From assembly GCF_020010925.1 (NCBI RefSeq), contig NZ_JAGJBZ010000002.1, positions 620,001 to 684,000 on the forward strand: a stretch of DNA of 64,000 nucleotides, read 5' to 3'. A model generated the notes under the pieces. It was not told the DNA's origin. It was given only the letters and a program-made list of their open reading frames with translations, and did not search any database. Below, one piece after another: positions 42,956 to 49,746 of this stretch. This DNA comes from Streptomyces griseiscabiei (GTDB lineage: Bacteria; Actinomycetota; Actinomycetes; Streptomycetales; Streptomycetaceae). Within the stretch, counting starts at the first letter, position 1; every line of letters begins with the position of its first letter. Position numbers and translations under genes: made by a program.

Positions 42956-43056
42956 CCGTGTTCGGGCCCGCTTCTCCTGGCGCCCGCCTCTTAGAGCGTT
43001 GCTCAATCGAGAGCCGCCCTTGCATCTCGCACCCTTCCCTGCTCGGGTTCCCTCTG

Positions 43057-43075
43057 CTTAGAGTGGCGTTCTAAG
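43057..43075. promoter_or_regulatory. Candidate operator of the urease-like operon
   Basis: CTTAGA (43057-43062) and TCTAAG (43070-43075) are inverted around GTGGCGT, 36 bases before the ureAB start. A related CTTAGAGCGTT occurs near 42989. The size and symmetry suit the TetR protein encoded at the end of the same operon, but that link is inference. Confidence 0.4.
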
Positions 43076-43110
43076 ACATGGTGAACGAGGGCGCAAGGAG
43101 GTGTCGCCGT

Positions 43111-43794
43111 ATGCGACTCACCCCCACCGAACGCGACCGGCTGCTCCTCTTCGGCGCCGCCGAGCTGGCCAGGGCCCGCCGGGCGCGGGGCCTGCGGCTG
43201 AACGTGCCCGAGGCGACCGCCCTGATCGCGGACACGGTGTGCGAGGCGGCCCGGGACGGGGTGCGGCTCGCCGAGGCGATCACGCGGGCGCGGAGCGTGC
43301 TCGGCCCCGACGACGTCCTGCCGGGTGTCGCGGACATCGTCACCGAGGTCCAGGTCGAGGCCGTCTTCGACGACGGGTCACGGCTGGCGGTGGTCTCCGA
43401 CCCCCTCGCCGCCGCGGGGCTCGGGTCCGGCGCGCCCGGCGCACTCCTGCCGGGTCCGGCACACACCGAACCCGAGGCGGTCGTCCGGCTCACGGTCACC
43501 AACACCGCCGGTGTGCCGGTCTCCGTCACCTCCCACTTCCACTTCTTCGAGGCCAACCCCCGGCTCGACTTCGCGCGGGCGGCGGCGTACGGGATGCGGC
43601 TCGCCGTCCCCGCCGGGTCGTCGGTGCGGTTCGGGCCGGGGGAGAGCGCGGAGGTCGGGCTCGTGCCGATCGGGGGCGCCCGGACCGCGATCGGCTTCGC
43701 CGGTCTCGTCGACGGGGAGCTGGACGCGCCCGGCGCCAAGGAGGAGGCCCTGCGCCGGGCCGCCGCCTGCGGCTACCTGGGGGCGGACCGATGA
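43111..43794 (+). CDS. ureAB: Fused urease gamma-beta subunit (UreAB)
   Basis: 227-residue fusion of the two small urease subunits, as in Helicobacter-type ureases. Residues 1-100 match UreA (MRLTPTERDRLLLFGAAELA, ARGLRLNVPEATALIAD, VQVEAVFDDGSRL). Residues about 110-205 match UreB (VRLTVTNTAGVPVSVTSHFHFFEANPRLDF, then RLAVPAGSSVRFGPG). A C-terminal extension ends AAACGYLGADR. ATG 43111 has AAGGAGGTG at ideal spacing; an ATG at 43078 is upstream of that site. The stop overlaps the ureC ATG. No ureD, ureE, ureF or ureG lies in the operon. Confidence 0.92.
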   Translation: MRLTPTERDRLLLFGAAELARARRARGLRLNVPEATALIADTVCEAARDGVRLAEAITRARSVLGPDDVLPGVADIVTEVQVEAVFDDGSRLAVVSDPLAAAGLGSGAPGALLPGPAHTEPEAVVRLTVTNTAGVPVSVTSHFHFFEANPRLDFARAAAYGMRLAVPAGSSVRFGPGESAEVGLVPIGGARTAIGFAGLVDGELDAPGAKEEALRRAAACGYLGADR

Positions 43795-45470
43795 GCGCCG
43801 ATCCCCATGCCTACGCGGCCACCCACGGCCCCCGCGCCGGCGACCGCCTCCGGCTCGGGGACTCGGGGCTCGTGATCCGCGTCGAGTCGGACTCCCAGCG
43901 GTACGGCGACGAGTTCCTGGCCGGCTTCGGGAAGACCGCGCGGGACGGGCTGCACCTCAGGGCGGCGGCCGTCCGGGAGACCTGTGACGTCGTGATCAGC
44001 AATGTCGTGGTGATCGACGCGGTGCAGGGCGTCCGGAAGGTGTCCATCGGCATCCGCGAGGGGCGGATCAGCGCGATCGGGCGGGCCGGGAACCCCGACA
44101 CCCTCGACGGGGTCGAGGTCGTCGTCGGCACGGGCACCTCCATCGTCTCCGGCGAGGGGCTGATCGCCACCGCCGGGGCCGTCGACACCCATGTCCATCT
44201 GCTGTCGCCGCGGATCATGGAGGCCTCGCTCGCCTCCGGGGTGACCACGATCATCGGGCAGGAGTTCGGGCCGGTGTGGGGCGTCGGGGTCAACTCGCCC
44301 TGGGCGCTGCGGCACACCTTCAACGCCTTCGACGCCTGGCCGGTCAACATCGGCTTTCTGGGCCGGGGTTCGTCGTCCCACCCGGCACCCCTGGTCGAGG
44401 CCCTCGCCGAGGGCGGCGCCTCCGGTTTCAAGGTGCACGAGGACATGGGCGCCCACACCCGGGCGCTGGACACGGCCCTGCGGGTCGCCGAGGAGCACGA
44501 CGTCCAGGTCGCCCTGCACAGCGACGGGCTGAACGAGTGCCTGTCGGTCGAGGACACCCTGCGGGTGCTGGAGGGCCGGACCGTCCACGCCTTCCACATC
44601 GAGGGCTGCGGCGGCGGCCATGTACCGAACGTCCTGAAGATGGCCGGGGTCCCGAACGTCATCGGCTCCTCCACCAACCCGACCCTCCCCTTCGGCCGGG
44701 ACGCCGTCGCCGAGCACCACGGGATGATCGTCTCCGTCCACGGCCTCAAGACCGACCTGCCCGGCGACGCGGCGCTGGCCCGCGACCGCATCCGCGCCGG
44801 GACGATGGGCGCCGAGGACGTCCTGCACGACCTGGGCGCCATCGGCATCACCTCCTCGGACGCGCAGGGCATGGGCCGCGCGGGGGAGACCGTCCGGCGG
44901 ACCTTCGCGATGGCCGGGAAGATGAAGGCCGAGTTCGGCTCCCCGGACGACGGCGACGACAACGAGCGCGTCCTGCGCTACATCGCCAAGCTGACCGTCA
45001 ACCCGGCCGTCGCCCACGGCCTTTCGCACGAGATCGGCTCCATCGAGGTCGGCAAGCTGGCCGACCTCGTGCTGTGGCGGCCCGAGTACTTCGGCGCCAA
45101 GCCCCAGCTCGTGCTGAAGTCCGGCTTCCCGGCGTACGGCGTGGTCGGCGACCCGAACGCGGCGACGGACGTCTGTGAACCCCTGGTCCTGGGGCCGCAG
45201 TTCGGGGCGTACGGCGCCACGCCCGCCGACCTCTCCGTGGCCTTCGTCGCACGGGCCGCCCTCGACCAGGGCGGTGACACGCTGCCGACCCGGCGCCGCA
45301 GGGTCGCCGTGCACGGCACCCGGGGGATCGGCCCGGCCGATCTGCGCCTCAACTCCCGTACCGGATCGGTCGACGTGGACCAGCGCACCGGACTGGTCAC
45401 CCTCGACGGCGAACCGCTGCGCTCCGCGCCGGCCGAGTCCGTCTCCCTCAACCGCCTCTACTTCCTCTGA
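43791..45470 (+). CDS. ureC: Urease-like alpha subunit with altered flap
   Basis: 559-residue Ni-amidohydrolase subunit. The expected metal ligands are visible: His134 and His136 in DTHVH, the carbamylated Lys214 in GFKVHEDMG, His243 in ALHSDGLNE, His269 in FHIEGCGGGH and the Asp in TSSDAQGMGR. The mobile flap is changed: the canonical V-C-H-H reads S-V-H-G, so the flap Cys becomes Val316 and the second His becomes Gly318, while the catalytic His317 stays. The start overlaps the ureAB stop (ATGA). Agmatine deiminase follows after eight bases. It may hydrolyse urea or another ureido compound; the maturation genes must be elsewhere. Confidence 0.9.
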   Translation: MSADPHAYAATHGPRAGDRLRLGDSGLVIRVESDSQRYGDEFLAGFGKTARDGLHLRAAAVRETCDVVISNVVVIDAVQGVRKVSIGIREGRISAIGRAGNPDTLDGVEVVVGTGTSIVSGEGLIATAGAVDTHVHLLSPRIMEASLASGVTTIIGQEFGPVWGVGVNSPWALRHTFNAFDAWPVNIGFLGRGSSSHPAPLVEALAEGGASGFKVHEDMGAHTRALDTALRVAEEHDVQVALHSDGLNECLSVEDTLRVLEGRTVHAFHIEGCGGGHVPNVLKMAGVPNVIGSSTNPTLPFGRDAVAEHHGMIVSVHGLKTDLPGDAALARDRIRAGTMGAEDVLHDLGAIGITSSDAQGMGRAGETVRRTFAMAGKMKAEFGSPDDGDDNERVLRYIAKLTVNPAVAHGLSHEIGSIEVGKLADLVLWRPEYFGAKPQLVLKSGFPAYGVVGDPNAATDVCEPLVLGPQFGAYGATPADLSVAFVARAALDQGGDTLPTRRRRVAVHGTRGIGPADLRLNSRTGSVDVDQRTGLVTLDGEPLRSAPAESVSLNRLYFL

Positions 45471-45478
45471 GGACCGCC

Positions 45479-46543
45479 ATGTCCGCTGCCGCCGACGGTT
45501 TCCGTATGCCCCCCGAGTGGGCCCCGCACGAGCGCACCTGGATGGCGTGGCCGGGGCCGAACCCGACCTTCGAGGACCCGGACGACCTGGCGGAGGCCCG
45601 GCGGGCCTGGGCGTCCGTCGCCCGTGCCGTGCGCCGGTTCGAACCGGTGACCGTGGTGTGCGGGCCGGGGCAGTCGAGGCAGGCGCGCACCCTGCTGGGC
45701 GAGGACGTCGACACCGTGGAACGGGAACTGGACGACGCCTGGATGCGGGACATCGGGCCCACCTTCCTCACCGACGGAAGTGAACTGGCCGCCGTCGACT
45801 GGACGTTCAACGGCTGGGGCGCCCAGCCCTGGGCCCGCTGGGAGCACGACGCGCGGATCGCCGGGCAGGTCGCCGAGCTGGCGGGCGCCCGGACGTACAC
45901 CTCGAAGCTGGTCAACGAGGGCGGGGCGATCCATGTCGACGGCGAGGGGACGGTCCTGCTCACGGAGACCGTGCAGCTCGGCCCGGAGCGCAACCCCGGC
46001 TGGAGCCGCGAGCAGGCGGAGGCGGAGGTGCACGCCCTGCTCGGCACCCGCAAGGCGATCTGGCTGCCGTGCGGCCTCACCGGCGACTATCCGCCCCACG
46101 GCTACGGCACCCTCGGCCATGTCGACATCGTGGCGGCCTTCGCCCGGCCCGGCGTGGTCGTGGCCCACTCCCAGCCGGACCCGGCCCACCCCGACCACCG
46201 GATCACCCGGGAGATCATCGGCCTGCTGCGGGCCGAGACCGACGCGTGCGGGCGGCGCCTGGAGGTCGTCGAGGTCCCCGCGCCGACCGTGCTGGAGGCG
46301 GACGGCCGCTGGGCCGACTACTCCTACATCAACCACTACCTCGTCAACGGCGGAGTCGTCCTGTGCGGCTTCGACGATCCGCGCGACGAGATCGCCGCCG
46401 GGATCTTCCGCCGCCTCTTCCCGGAGCGGACGGTCACGCTCGTCGACGCCCGCACCGTCTTCGCGGGCGGCGGCGGCATCCACTGCGTCACCCAGCAGCA
46501 GCCGAGGACAGCCCCCCGGCGTCAGGTAGAAACGTACGGATGA
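45479..46543 (+). CDS. aguA: Agmatine deiminase
   Basis: Converts agmatine to N-carbamoylputrescine and ammonia. The 354-residue product of the PAD_porph family has RTWMAWPGPNPTF at the N-terminus, the Asp motif WMRDIGPTF, GGAIHVDGEGTVLLTE, GHVD with the catalytic His, and the nucleophile Cys336 in GGGGIHCVTQQQP. The ATG at 45479 follows GAGGACCGCC. It shares an operon with the urease-like genes and its stop overlaps the TetR start. Its product is a substituted urea, which links it chemically to the preceding genes. No N-carbamoylputrescine amidase (aguB) is seen nearby. Confidence 0.9.
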   Translation: MSAAADGFRMPPEWAPHERTWMAWPGPNPTFEDPDDLAEARRAWASVARAVRRFEPVTVVCGPGQSRQARTLLGEDVDTVERELDDAWMRDIGPTFLTDGSELAAVDWTFNGWGAQPWARWEHDARIAGQVAELAGARTYTSKLVNEGGAIHVDGEGTVLLTETVQLGPERNPGWSREQAEAEVHALLGTRKAIWLPCGLTGDYPPHGYGTLGHVDIVAAFARPGVVVAHSQPDPAHPDHRITREIIGLLRAETDACGRRLEVVEVPAPTVLEADGRWADYSYINHYLVNGGVVLCGFDDPRDEIAAGIFRRLFPERTVTLVDARTVFAGGGGIHCVTQQQPRTAPRRQVETYG

Positions 46544-47169
46544 CCACGCCACCGCCCCCGCCGCAGCCGCCGCTCACCACGGCCCGGCGCCGCAACACCG
46601 CCCCGCCCCGCGAGGACGTCCTGGCCGCCGCCATGGGCATGATCGCCGAACGGGGTCTGGAGAAGCTGACCATGGCGGCGCTCGGCCGCGAGGTCGGCAT
46701 GAGCAGTGGCCATCTCCTCTACTACTTCCACTCCAAGGACGAACTCCTGCTGCGGACCCTGGAGTGGAGCGAGGGCCGGCTCGGCGCCGAACGCGCCCGG
46801 CTGCTCACCCGTACGGACACCGCCCGCGAACGGCTGGAAGCGTACGTGGACCTGTATGTCCCGGACGGCCACCGCGACCCGCACTGGACGCTCTGGCTGG
46901 AGGTCTGGAACCGCTCGCAGAACGCCGACGACGACGCCCGCGACCGGCAGGCCGCCATCGAGGGCGCCTGGCACCGCGACCTGGTGGCCCTGCTCGCGGA
47001 GGGTGTGTCGAAGGGGGAGTTCCGCGAGGTCGACCCGGACCGGGTCGCCGCCCGGCTGCGGGCCCTGCTCGACGGCTTCTCCATCCATGTGGCCATCGGG
47101 CTGCGCGGGACGGACCGTGGCCAGATCCTGTCCCACGTAGGGGAGTTCCTCGACGAGTCACTCGGCTGA
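46540..47169 (+). CDS. TetR-family regulator of the urease-like operon
   Basis: 209 residues. After a Pro-rich start (MTTPPPPPQPPLTTARRRNT), the HTH is REDVLAAAMGMIAERGLEKLTMAALGREVGMSSGHLLYYF, followed by a helical ligand-binding domain with VDLYVPDGHRDPHWTLWLEVW. It begins at ATG 46540, overlapping the agmatine deiminase stop, so it is coupled to the operon. It probably autoregulates the operon from the palindrome near 43057 and may sense a polyamine-related ligand; both points are inference. The domain resembles BetI-like TetR proteins. Confidence 0.9.
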   Translation: MTTPPPPPQPPLTTARRRNTAPPREDVLAAAMGMIAERGLEKLTMAALGREVGMSSGHLLYYFHSKDELLLRTLEWSEGRLGAERARLLTRTDTARERLEAYVDLYVPDGHRDPHWTLWLEVWNRSQNADDDARDRQAAIEGAWHRDLVALLAEGVSKGEFREVDPDRVAARLRALLDGFSIHVAIGLRGTDRGQILSHVGEFLDESLG

Positions 47170-47323: not shown

Positions 47324-48493
47324 GTGTCCAGAGCCGCACAAGTGTCCAAGCACCGCGACGCCCGCTCAGGTGCCGTGTCACCGGTCTCCTTGGCCTCGGC
47401 GCTGCTGCTCGCGCTCACCGCCGCCCCGAGCGCCACCGCGGCGACGCCGCACCCCTCACCCGACGGGCACGCCCCGCGCGTCGAACGCGTCAGCACCGCC
47501 CCCGACGGCGGCCAGCTGCCCGGCGCCTCCTCCGGCGCGGCCGTCAGTGCCGACGGCCGGTACGCGGTGTTCGCCACGGCCGACCCCGGCGGCGGCTCCG
47601 ACCAGCTCCTGTACGTCAAGGACCTGCGCACCGGACGGCTCACGCAGGTCCCCGAGGACCTGCAGTACACCGGCGGCCCGATGATCGGCGCCGACGGCCG
47701 CCGTATCGCCTACAACAACAGCAACCGCTTCCCGCGCCCGTACGTGTACGACCGCGCGACCGGCCGGACACAGGCGCTGTGGCCCGCGCGGGAGCCGGAC
47801 GGCAGCTCCTACGAACTGGGCACGGTGAGCGCGATCAGCGCCGACGGCCGGCCCGTCGCCTACACGATCGGCAACCGCCACGGTGACCAGTTCGCCCGGG
47901 TGCTGTACGTCCGCGACCTGGTCACCGGCACCGACGAGCAGATCACCGCGCTGCCGCCCGAGGGCATGATCACCCACGCCCGGCTGAGCGCGGACGGCCG
48001 TACCGTCGCCTACGGTGTCCTGGTGCGCACCGCCTCGGGCCCGCTCGGCCGGGTCTACGTCAAGGACCGGCGGACGGGCACGACCCACCGGGTGGACCCC
48101 GACCCGGCCGCCGGCTCCACCCTCGCCCAGCTCTCCGACGACGGCCGCCGGGTCCTCCTCACCACGACACCGGCCACGTCACCGACCCCGGGCACGCCCC
48201 AGCCGTACGTCCACGACCGGCGCACCGGCCGCACCGAACCGGTGGGACCCGCGGGCAGTACGGCGGTCGCCGGCGACGCCACCGGCCGGTACGCCCTGCT
48301 CGGCCGGGACGGCGCACTGACCCTCCTCGATCTGCGCACCGGCGCGCACCGGCCCGTGACCACGACCGGTACCGCGCTCCCGGGCGCGGTCACCCGTCAC
48401 GGCCGCGCCGTGGTGTTCACCTCCACGGCTGACGACCTGGTCCCGGACGACACCAACGGCGTCGCGGACGTGTTCATCCGGTGGGGCCGCTGA
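47324..48493 (+). CDS. Secreted TolB/PD40-like beta-propeller protein A
   Basis: About 389 residues. A signal peptide is visible (SPVSLASALLLALTAAPSATAA). The rest consists of repeated blade motifs such as GAAVSADGRYAVFATADPGG, GAISADGRPVAYTIGN-like units and YVKDLRTGRLTQV, the PD40/TolB pattern 'S.DGR.va..s ... v...d..tg.t..v'. It probably forms an extracellular propeller that binds ligands or proteins. GTG 47324 follows TTTCGGGGGAGCC. A paralogue follows 50 bases later. The gap before it (47170-47323) holds no gene. Confidence 0.83.
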   Translation: MSRAAQVSKHRDARSGAVSPVSLASALLLALTAAPSATAATPHPSPDGHAPRVERVSTAPDGGQLPGASSGAAVSADGRYAVFATADPGGGSDQLLYVKDLRTGRLTQVPEDLQYTGGPMIGADGRRIAYNNSNRFPRPYVYDRATGRTQALWPAREPDGSSYELGTVSAISADGRPVAYTIGNRHGDQFARVLYVRDLVTGTDEQITALPPEGMITHARLSADGRTVAYGVLVRTASGPLGRVYVKDRRTGTTHRVDPDPAAGSTLAQLSDDGRRVLLTTTPATSPTPGTPQPYVHDRRTGRTEPVGPAGSTAVAGDATGRYALLGRDGALTLLDLRTGAHRPVTTTGTALPGAVTRHGRAVVFTSTADDLVPDDTNGVADVFIRWGR

Positions 48494-48543
48494 ACCGGCC
48501 CTCCACACACCGGAGTTCACCGGGCACACAGGGGGAACGGATC

Positions 48544-49746
48544 TTGTACGCCAGCACACGCATCGCACTCGGCGCCGCGTTCGTCGCGGTCGCGGTGGCG
48601 CTCACCGGGCTTCCGGCCGGTGCCGCGCCCACCGCTCGGGCCGCGGCACCGCACACCGAACCGATCAGCGTCACACCCGGCGGGAAGGCGGGCGGCGGCG
48701 ACTCCGGGCACGCGGTGATCAGCCGCGACGGCCGGTACACGGCCTTCTCCTCGACCGCCACGGACCTCGTACCGGGCAAGCCCGGCGGTGTCTTCGTCCG
48801 CGATCTGCGCACCGGGAAACTGGAGCGCGTGGCGGCCGGCCTCGCCCCGTCGATCAGCGCCGACGGCCGGTACGTCGCCGTCGGCAGCACCTTCAGGCTG
48901 CACGACCGGCGCACCGGCCGCACCGAACGGCTCGACACCGGCCTCCCGAAGGGCTTCACCCCCTCCGGCGAGATCTCCCTCGGCGCCGACGCCCGCCACG
49001 CCGTCTACGTCGCCTCCAGCGAGGAGGAGGGCTACGTCGTCTTCCTGCGCGACCGCGCCAAGGGCACCACCGAGCGGATCAGCCACCCGAAGCCGACCTG
49101 GGAGACCCGCAACGCCTTCGCCCCGACCGTCAGCGACGACGGCAACCGGGTCGTCTACCAGTACACGTACGCGGGCGGACCGCGCGGCGACGACTGGGGC
49201 GACATCTGGATGCTCGACCGCGCCACGGGTAAGCGCACCCTGATCGACCGCTCGTACGACGGCTCCCCGACCGAACGGGAGTCCCTGGAACCCTCGATCA
49301 GCGGCGACGGACGCACGGTCGTCTTCGAGTCCCGCGACACCCACCTGGTCCCCGGCGACGACGACGGCAGCTGGAACGTGTTCGCGCACACCGTCGCCAC
49401 CGGCAAGAACCGCCGTCTGCACGCCACCCACGGCGGACCGCACGCCGCCCACACCCGCAACCCGGCGGTCGGCGCCGACGGCCGTTTCGTCACCTTCACG
49501 TCCTGGGTGGAGGAGGCGGGCAGCCAGGACGGCGCCGAGTACCCGGTGTACCTCCGGGACCTGAAGAAGGGCACCACCGTCCTGCTCACCCCGGACACCA
49601 CCGGCGGCACGGCCACGGCGTACGTCGAGCCCGGCATGATCGCGGACGGCGCCGCCCGGATCGCCTTCGAGTCCCAGGACCCGTCCCTGGTCCCGGGCGG
49701 CGACACCAACGACGCCCGGGACGTCTTCGTACGCCACACGCGGTGA
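48544..49746 (+). CDS. Secreted TolB/PD40-like beta-propeller protein B
   Basis: 400 residues, paralogue of the preceding gene. The N-terminus YASTRIALGAAFVAVAVAL is a signal sequence ending near GAAPTARAA. Blade motifs recur, for example SRDGRYTAFSSTATDLVPGK, SADGRYVAVGS, GDGRTVVFESRDTHLVPGD and ADGAARIAFESQDPSLVPGG, with the conserved 'L.pgd.n...DvF..' element. Start is TTG 48544 with GGGGGAACGG upstream; the frame is open to 48481 but those codons overlap the previous gene's end. Function unknown. Confidence 0.83.
   Translation: MYASTRIALGAAFVAVAVALTGLPAGAAPTARAAAPHTEPISVTPGGKAGGGDSGHAVISRDGRYTAFSSTATDLVPGKPGGVFVRDLRTGKLERVAAGLAPSISADGRYVAVGSTFRLHDRRTGRTERLDTGLPKGFTPSGEISLGADARHAVYVASSEEEGYVVFLRDRAKGTTERISHPKPTWETRNAFAPTVSDDGNRVVYQYTYAGGPRGDDWGDIWMLDRATGKRTLIDRSYDGSPTERESLEPSISGDGRTVVFESRDTHLVPGDDDGSWNVFAHTVATGKNRRLHATHGGPHAAHTRNPAVGADGRFVTFTSWVEEAGSQDGAEYPVYLRDLKKGTTVLLTPDTTGGTATAYVEPGMIADGAARIAFESQDPSLVPGGDTNDARDVFVRHTR

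Follow-up and report, generated by a model that had tools for sequence, protein, structure and literature searches.

A urease-like gene set paired with an AguA-family deiminase in Streptomyces griseiscabiei and its relatives: a candidate two-step route from guanidino compounds to amines

Urease is the textbook narrow nickel enzyme, and its Ala170 loop, Cys322-His323-His324 flap and Ala366 are the residues that enclose urea. The AguA-AguB pathway of Pseudomonas and plants yields an amine by two hydrolyses, the second by a nitrilase-family amidase, and a fermentative pathway uses agmatine deiminase, putrescine carbamoyltransferase, carbamate kinase and an antiporter. Helicobacter mustelae has a second, iron-containing urease set, UreA2B2, without accessory genes of its own (excerpts of PMC6737895). 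Here we describe an operon of Streptomyces griseiscabiei in which urease-like genes are joined to an AguA-family deiminase gene. It lies in a stretch of 64,000 nucleotides, hereafter the window (assembly GCF_020010925.1, contig NZ_JAGJBZ010000002.1, positions 620,001 to 684,000, forward strand). We use UreC2 for the UreC type of this operon, to tell it apart from canonical UreC, and UreABC2 for the whole set. Judged from its sequence, UreC2 appears to be a urease relative with an intact catalytic core and a rebuilt urea pocket that would fit a substituted urea. Our best reading, which we consider reasonably probable, is a two-step pathway in which a deiminase would be followed by a urease-type ureide hydrolase.

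The operon comprises four genes, given here with their positions in the window:

43111-43794, + strand: ureAB, fused urease gamma and beta subunits (227 aa; family models)
43791-45470, + strand: ureC2, urease-alpha-like metallohydrolase (559 aa; family models and alignment)
45479-46543, + strand: aguA-family guanidino deiminase (354 aa; family models and alignment)
46540-47169, + strand: tetR, with a BetI-type C-terminal domain in the family scan (209 aa); probably regulates the operon

AGGAGG precedes the ureAB start, ATGA overlaps join ureAB to ureC2 and aguA to tetR, and ureC2 and aguA are spaced by 8 bases. These coordinates confirm the first-pass annotation of the stretch, which had described one operon of four overlapping or nearly touching genes. 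The same-strand run is flanked by ilvE and two beta-propeller-like genes. For the family scans, ureAB was taken from an in-frame start at 43078 and ureC2 without its first codon. The ureAB product passed the urease gamma/beta fusion model NF009671 (319 bits, cut-off 243) and UreC2 the urease alpha subfamily model NF009686 (734 bits, cut-off 354), and the set thus has the gamma, beta and alpha make-up of urease; the deiminase matched PAD_porph (PF04371) at 360 bits. The stricter equivalog cut-offs were not reached, UreC2 scoring 626 bits against TIGR01792 (cut-off 680) and the deiminase 296 bits against the agmatine deiminase model TIGR03380 (cut-off 381.8). A canonical urease lies on another contig of the 10.6 Mb genome, its ureC (G000:C1:2472859-2474556) having ureF and ureG as near neighbours. 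No ureF or ureG was found in the window, and the genome's sole matches above cut-off are those adjoining the canonical ureC (ureD and ureE were not searched), which makes the window urease a second set without maturation genes of its own. The annotated absence of ureD, ureE, ureF and ureG nearby therefore holds for ureF and ureG in the window, while the genome has both on the other contig.

UreC2 was compared with canonical UreC in an alignment of 154 sequences of both types, numbered after the reference Sporosarcina pasteurii urease. H137, H139, K220, H222, H249, H275, H323, R339, D363, D224 and G280 are invariant (154/154), and UreC2 retains the bimetal ligands, the bridging lysine and the catalytic His and Arg residues. 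The aligned segments of the window protein are as follows:

44256-44303, + strand: UreC2 residues 156-171, GQEFGPVWGVGVNSPW, replacing the urease Ala170 loop
44430-44444, + strand: KVHED, with the metal-bridging lysine and a catalytic His kept
44730-44747, + strand: flap VSVHGL (MVCHHL in urease), with His323 kept and Cys322 and His324 changed
44853-44876, + strand: SSDAQGMG, with the metal ligand Asp363 kept and Ala366 replaced by Gly

UreABC2 shares with the nickel urease UreABC (S. pasteurii, K. aerogenes; PDB 1s3t, 1ejw) its subunits, gamma and beta being fused here, its sequence family, the metal ligands, the position of the bridging lysine and the catalytic His222 and His323. It differs in the pocket, in being paired with a deiminase and in its presence in genomes that yielded neither UreF nor UreG. 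The S. pasteurii segment GGGTGPAEGSKATTVTPGPW aligns with the UreC2 loop, which is 4 residues shorter and so lacks the Ala170 segment, and of all the urea-enclosing residues the window protein keeps only His323. The CHH flap reads VHG in the window and VHD, AHD or similar in other UreC2 proteins, and every aligned UreC2 has a QE/QD-type loop, a residue other than His at 324 and Gly at 366. Together these changes suggest room for a substituent on urea. The first-pass proposal of a modified urease gains from this comparison, since an altered pocket on an intact core is what would be expected for a substituted urea.

The spread of UreC2 was measured in samples of 150 Streptomyces, 200 Streptomycetaceae and 396 phylum genomes and in one scan of named genome contigs, which took the best 80 of 567 relatives and so gives a lower bound. 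The Streptomyces sample holds 97 listed copies (3 partial) in 88 of 150 genomes, scoring at least 691 bits and all above the first canonical UreC (518 bits); contig-cut copies in G039 and G042 fall outside the 97. Listed Streptomyces copies are 77-94% identical to the window UreC2, and the canonical UreC sequences listed are 46-50% identical. Among the 396 phylum genomes, matches at the UreC2 level were confined to the same genus, and two weaker ones (G350 and G360) bear the same kind of altered motif. UreC2 was found in 140 of the 200 Streptomycetaceae genomes, representing 14 of 17 genera, and the contig scan (best 80 of 567) adds Solirubrobacter, Conexibacter, Gaiellales, other Thermoleophilia and Streptosporangiaceae. 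In a tree of 67 UreC sequences, the 46 UreC2 sequences form one side of a supported split (100/99) from the other 21. Passages of PMC2492869 group the UreC of Pseudomonas syringae and Bradyrhizobium with that of S. coelicolor. Further UreC variants were seen at other loci. A separate long-branch group in the phylum sample (L082, L084, L085) has the loop TAGFEEP, altered further still, a VHE or VHG flap and ureAB upstream (L094, L095), with no AguA labelled nearby; another variant (L070, L075) has GGGLGPVTVGITSSG at the Ala170 loop, a retained CHH flap and Gly at 366.

An AguA-family gene lies within 2.5 kb of each of the 97 listed UreC2 copies (97/97; AguA matches down to 241.6 bits were counted), always on the same strand, downstream in 95 and upstream in 2 (G002, G073). 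It is likewise linked in all 55 Streptomyces-type loci of the named-contig scan (best 80 of 567). The linkage is far beyond chance in the genus sample, and the pairing within Streptomycetaceae is stronger than the first-pass annotation could tell. It also recurs in several settings. Streptomyces has two chromosomal sites, one between ilvE and cimA and another usually accompanied by an ABC transporter of the Dpp/Opp type and a more distant AguA (42-45%), and other Streptomycetaceae genera have further sites. The order is aguA-first in L041 and L042. Outside the family, AguA adjoins UreC2 in 8 of 21 loci (L136, L137, L138, L139, L140, L142, L163, L210), L139 being nearly identical to L138. In Thermoleophilia the order is aguA-ureAB-ureC in L137, L138, L139, L140 and L142 and ureAB-ureC-aguA in L136; the pairing occurs in Solirubrobacter, and L163 and L210 are from Streptosporangiaceae. 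These differing contexts and gene orders rule out AguA as the partner in only one inherited locus.

UreC2 also persists where maturation proteins are not detected. UreG is present in 126 of 140 UreC2-positive and 50 of 60 UreC2-negative Streptomycetaceae genomes, with no significant association (Fisher p 0.23). The 200-genome sample contains 24 genomes without UreG, four of which (G672, G686, G706, G724) were identified from gaps among the positive rows. We examined 18 UreC2 genomes lacking UreG, namely 14 of the family sample plus G094, G112, G148 and G350. UreF occurs in one of them (G619), at a contig edge, where the UreG gap is probably an assembly gap. UreC2 is the sole urease alpha in 14 of the 18, with a second alpha gene in G088, G547, G619 and G658. 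In these 14, neither UreG nor UreF was found (UreD was not searched), and an AguA-family gene adjoins UreC2 in all of them. UreC2 is thus kept where the UreF and UreG expected for maturation of a nickel urease are not detected. According to excerpts of PMC6737895, UreA2B2 of H. mustelae and its kin need no accessory proteins and Bacillus subtilis has no urease accessory genes, so that absence of UreF and UreG alone does not exclude urea hydrolysis.

In the proposed pathway, the AguA-family deiminase would hydrolyse some small guanidino compound to its ureido counterpart, releasing ammonia, and UreABC2, working without UreF or UreG, would hydrolyse the resulting mono-substituted urea to an amine, NH3 and CO2. 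The reactions, their order and the substrate are what we infer; acting together, the two enzymes may remove ammonia and CO2 from a compound bigger than urea, perhaps an agmatine derivative. The deiminase is represented by two motifs:

46100-46126, + strand: GYGTLGHVD, with the catalytic His and Asp kept and Gly at the Asp220 position (Medicago numbering; alignment)
46466-46486, + strand: GGGGIHC, with the catalytic Cys (alignment)

Asp89, Trp91, Asp94, Trp125, His224, Asp226, Gly361 and Cys366 (Medicago numbering) are kept in the aligned AguA-type proteins, with the exception of one protein cut at the locus end. The window AguA has the catalytic Cys, His and Asp and the guanidine-binding Asp, and the family member probably turns guanidino into ureido compounds.

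Several observations count against this pathway or parts of it. The pocket argument is built on aligned residues, and single pocket changes are non-diagnostic: Cys322 is retained by L157 and L158 inside the UreC2 clade, Gly366 occurs in other UreC groups (L070, L075, L082, L084, L085) and Val322 is found in L074 and L086, both outside the clade. The UreC2 copies are related, so the linkage counts are not independent, and the return of the pairing in other gene orders and surroundings is the more independent evidence. The linkage survey proposed in the first-pass annotation, complete for the listed Streptomyces copies, weakens outside Streptomycetaceae, where 13 of the 21 called UreC2 loci have no AguA nearby; three of them (L145, L149, L154) are cut close to the gene, and L146, L147, L148 and L150 are outside the 21, no UreC2 having been called there by a gene caller trained on Streptomyces codons. 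L157 and L158 have an Amidohydro_3-type protein after UreC2 in place of AguA (scanned in L157, by likeness in L158), and L158 also has an APC permease. Separation of aguA from these genes in related genomes had been named as a ground for rejection, and it occurs in one direction: an AguA-family match is present in 107 of the 150 Streptomyces genomes and 19 of these lack a listed UreC2, two of them (G039, G042) having a contig-cut UreC2 fragment. Close AguA proteins (at least 73%) without a listed UreC2 occur in nine genomes, at the same site where it is visible; ilvE-aguA-tetR stands there without ureABC2 in G005, G015, G036, G048, G066, G115, G126 and G127, and G056 ends at a contig edge. Within the genus sample, AguA without listed UreC2, but no listed UreC2 without AguA, is what would be expected if UreC2 acts on the product of AguA.

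The remaining difficulty concerns agmatine. In the Medicago enzyme AIH, as described in passages of PMC6447857, Asp220 contacts the amine of agmatine directly and loop 291-314 forms a lid. The Asp220 position holds Asp, Asp and Glu in three solved enzymes and Glu in the Dpp-linked AguA. It holds Gly in the window AguA and in most of those aligned, including the UreC2-paired proteins of Solirubrobacter/Thermoleophilia and Streptosporangiaceae, and the lid region, short in the same proteins, has 16 residues in the window AguA as against 29. The window protein thus has neither the acidic anchor nor the full lid of an agmatine deiminase, though Asp89, which makes a water-mediated contact, is kept. 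These two features make agmatine doubtful as its substrate and undermine the earlier claim that AguA makes N-carbamoylputrescine here. The substrate of the window AguA may be some other guanidino compound, or its tail may be held in a different way.

The first-pass annotation had proposed a special case of the two-step pathway, in which AguA makes N-carbamoylputrescine from agmatine and UreABC2 converts it to putrescine in place of AguB. N-Carbamoylputrescine is the best-known candidate for the UreABC2 substrate, a tentative one, and a different ureido compound has an equal or better chance. The special case shares its deiminase family and its two hydrolyses with the AguA-AguB pathway, from which it would differ in using a urease-family metallohydrolase for the second step and in the apparently altered tail recognition of the window deiminase. 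AguA family membership and the retained catalytic residues speak for it, and so does one Solirubrobacteraceae metagenome contig of 8.5 kb (L141), in which ureAB-ureC2 is divergent from a carbamoyltransferase gene followed by an APC-family transporter and carbamate kinase. The carbamoyltransferase has putrescine carbamoyltransferase as its best model (TIGR04384, 455 bits, cut-off 500) and passes the ornithine model (358 bits, cut-off 281). Its loop reads WWVD, with no DxxxSMG seen, which fits the putrescine motif given in an excerpt of PMC4581275, and the third position of FxExSxRT is Glu and not the expected Gln. These neighbours are shared with the fermentative agmatine deiminase pathway, although hydrolysis by UreABC2 would waste the carbamoyl group instead of making ATP; this one contig is a hint that ties UreC2 once more to ureido compounds. 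The AguB evidence cuts both ways. No AguB above the curated cut-off (410 bits) was found in any of the 150 Streptomyces genomes, with or without UreC2, and AguB-like amidases, scoring at best 268 bits, are present in 144 of the 150. The window genome has two within about 5 kb, together with an aminotransferase and a dihydropyrimidinase, company that makes them look like pyrimidine breakdown genes. SCO6414 is placed among homologues of ADC pathway genes in passages of PMC3293853, and from the order of listing there we read it as the AguB homologue. AguB-like amidases are found whether or not UreC2 is present, which gives no hint of an exchange, and the suggestion that UreABC2 replaces a missing aguB is not borne out. 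With the Gly at the Asp220 position and the short lid also against it, we regard the agmatine version as plausible but less likely than not.

UreABC2 might instead be a second urease for urea, matured without UreF or UreG and perhaps using iron or another metal, like UreA2B2. Its metal ligands are fully conserved, and excerpts of PMC6737895 and PMC3293853 lend this some weight, the former through the accessory-free examples given above and the latter by terming SCO5525-5526 urea-utilising. Most urea-enclosing residues are, however, replaced throughout the clade (Cys322 in L157 and L158 excepted), a deiminase acting on an N-substituted guanidine yields no urea, and the labelled neighbours include no recognised gene for urea transport or urea synthesis, most neighbours never having been annotated. 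UreA2B2 is reported to be a true urease and is not known to be linked to a deiminase. We think a second urease unlikely. Maturation in trans of an ordinary nickel isoform by the UreDFG of the canonical cluster would agree with the presence of UreG in most UreC2-positive family genomes, but UreG is not significantly commoner there, and the 14 genomes in which UreC2 is the sole alpha and no UreG or UreF was found (UreD was not searched) make this explanation very improbable. A non-catalytic relic or structural partner would account for the missing maturation genes and nothing further; with the compared ligands and catalytic residues invariant and the listed Streptomyces copies so similar to that of the window, it is scarcely credible. 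We return to the two-step pathway as the best reading. Whether it extends to a whole UreFG-independent urease branch in Streptomycetaceae, Streptosporangiaceae and Thermoleophilia, hydrolysing N-substituted ureas from partner deiminases, is evenly balanced in our judgement.

If the two-step pathway is right, a guanidino-to-amine route would be completed by a urease-type metalloenzyme and not by a nitrilase-type amidase or a carbamoyltransferase. The urease core would have been retargeted, and perhaps remetalled, in a conserved branch with another pocket and no need for UreF or UreG. A gene set counted as Streptomyces urea utilisation in passages of PMC3293853 and PMC5489568 would then be reassigned. 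SCO5525-SCO5526 is named with SCO5527 in excerpts of PMC2492869 and PMC3293853, and is taken, on gene numbers and not on sequence, to be the same operon, and PMC5489568 names ure(AB)C clusters of Streptomyces. In the available passages of all three papers such clusters are treated as urea genes, and neither the pairing nor the pocket is discussed there. PMC5489568, in excerpt, reports 15 of 31 isolates to be urease-positive though most carry urease genes, which leaves the activity of UreC2 undecided. No paper on the pairing of UreC2 with AguA was found among the open-access papers searched (subscription papers were not covered).

Two operator-like palindromes lie upstream of ureAB:

42991-43007, + strand: palindrome 1, TTAGAG-N5-CTCTAA, 2 mismatches; relatives have the motif before ureAB or aguA
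43058-43074, + strand: palindrome 2, 1 mismatch; begins some 54 bases ahead of ureAB

In the window their number alone is no more than chance (3 seen, 2.74 expected at up to 3 mismatches), and the case for them rests on position and conservation. The fetched loci (2,584,650 bases, some overlapping or covering one place twice) contain 130 such palindromes that have no more than 2 mismatches. Sorted by the closest gene start within 400 bases, 100 of these sites go with ureAB, 12 with aguA, 5 with an NCS1-like permease, 2 with ureC2, 1 with tetR and 8 with another gene, and 2 have none; the loci are centred on ureAB and aguA genes, which favours such positions. The 12 sites preceding aguA are all in eight AguA-only loci (L030, L031, L032, L033, L035, L037, L038, L040), and in L163 and L210 a palindrome lies between divergent tetR and ureAB. 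We infer that TetR is the protein that binds the palindromes; it would control the operon through the pair upstream of ureAB, probably being relieved by the substrate or product. In L040, L120, L121 and L134 the region that holds the palindrome is common to ureAB or aguA and a divergent NCS1-like permease gene; of these four loci only L121 matches the NCS1 model, weakly.

The neighbourhoods yielded further observations. Between tetR and cimA, at 47390-49746 of the window, lie tandem beta-propeller-like proteins, the first of which was scanned and matches PD40; they are absent from several related loci and so are not in the conserved unit. The second Streptomyces copies (L044-L051) combine ureAB-ureC2 and the distant AguA (42-45%) with TetR-like genes (by eye) and AguA paralogues (32-39%), and all but L049 have the Dpp/Opp-type ABC transporter (family scan for L044 alone). 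We rejected these ABC genes as a nickel transporter, as they also accompany an AguA-type gene without UreC2 in L053 and L054, which makes them more likely substrate importers. Genome G098 has nine AguA-family matches. In G658, a draft genome, one 861-residue open reading frame (L121:7848-10433) joins the Dpp-linked AguA in frame to a solute-binding protein, either a true fusion or an assembly error. The Gaiellales-type UreC2 set of L149, L151, L152 and L153 has a shared neighbourhood without AguA, whose genes look by eye like housekeeping ones. Downstream of aguA-ureAB-ureC2 in L137 (9548-12174) are genes for an MgtE_N/CBS protein and for a metal transporter of the Nramp type, which may hint at the metal.

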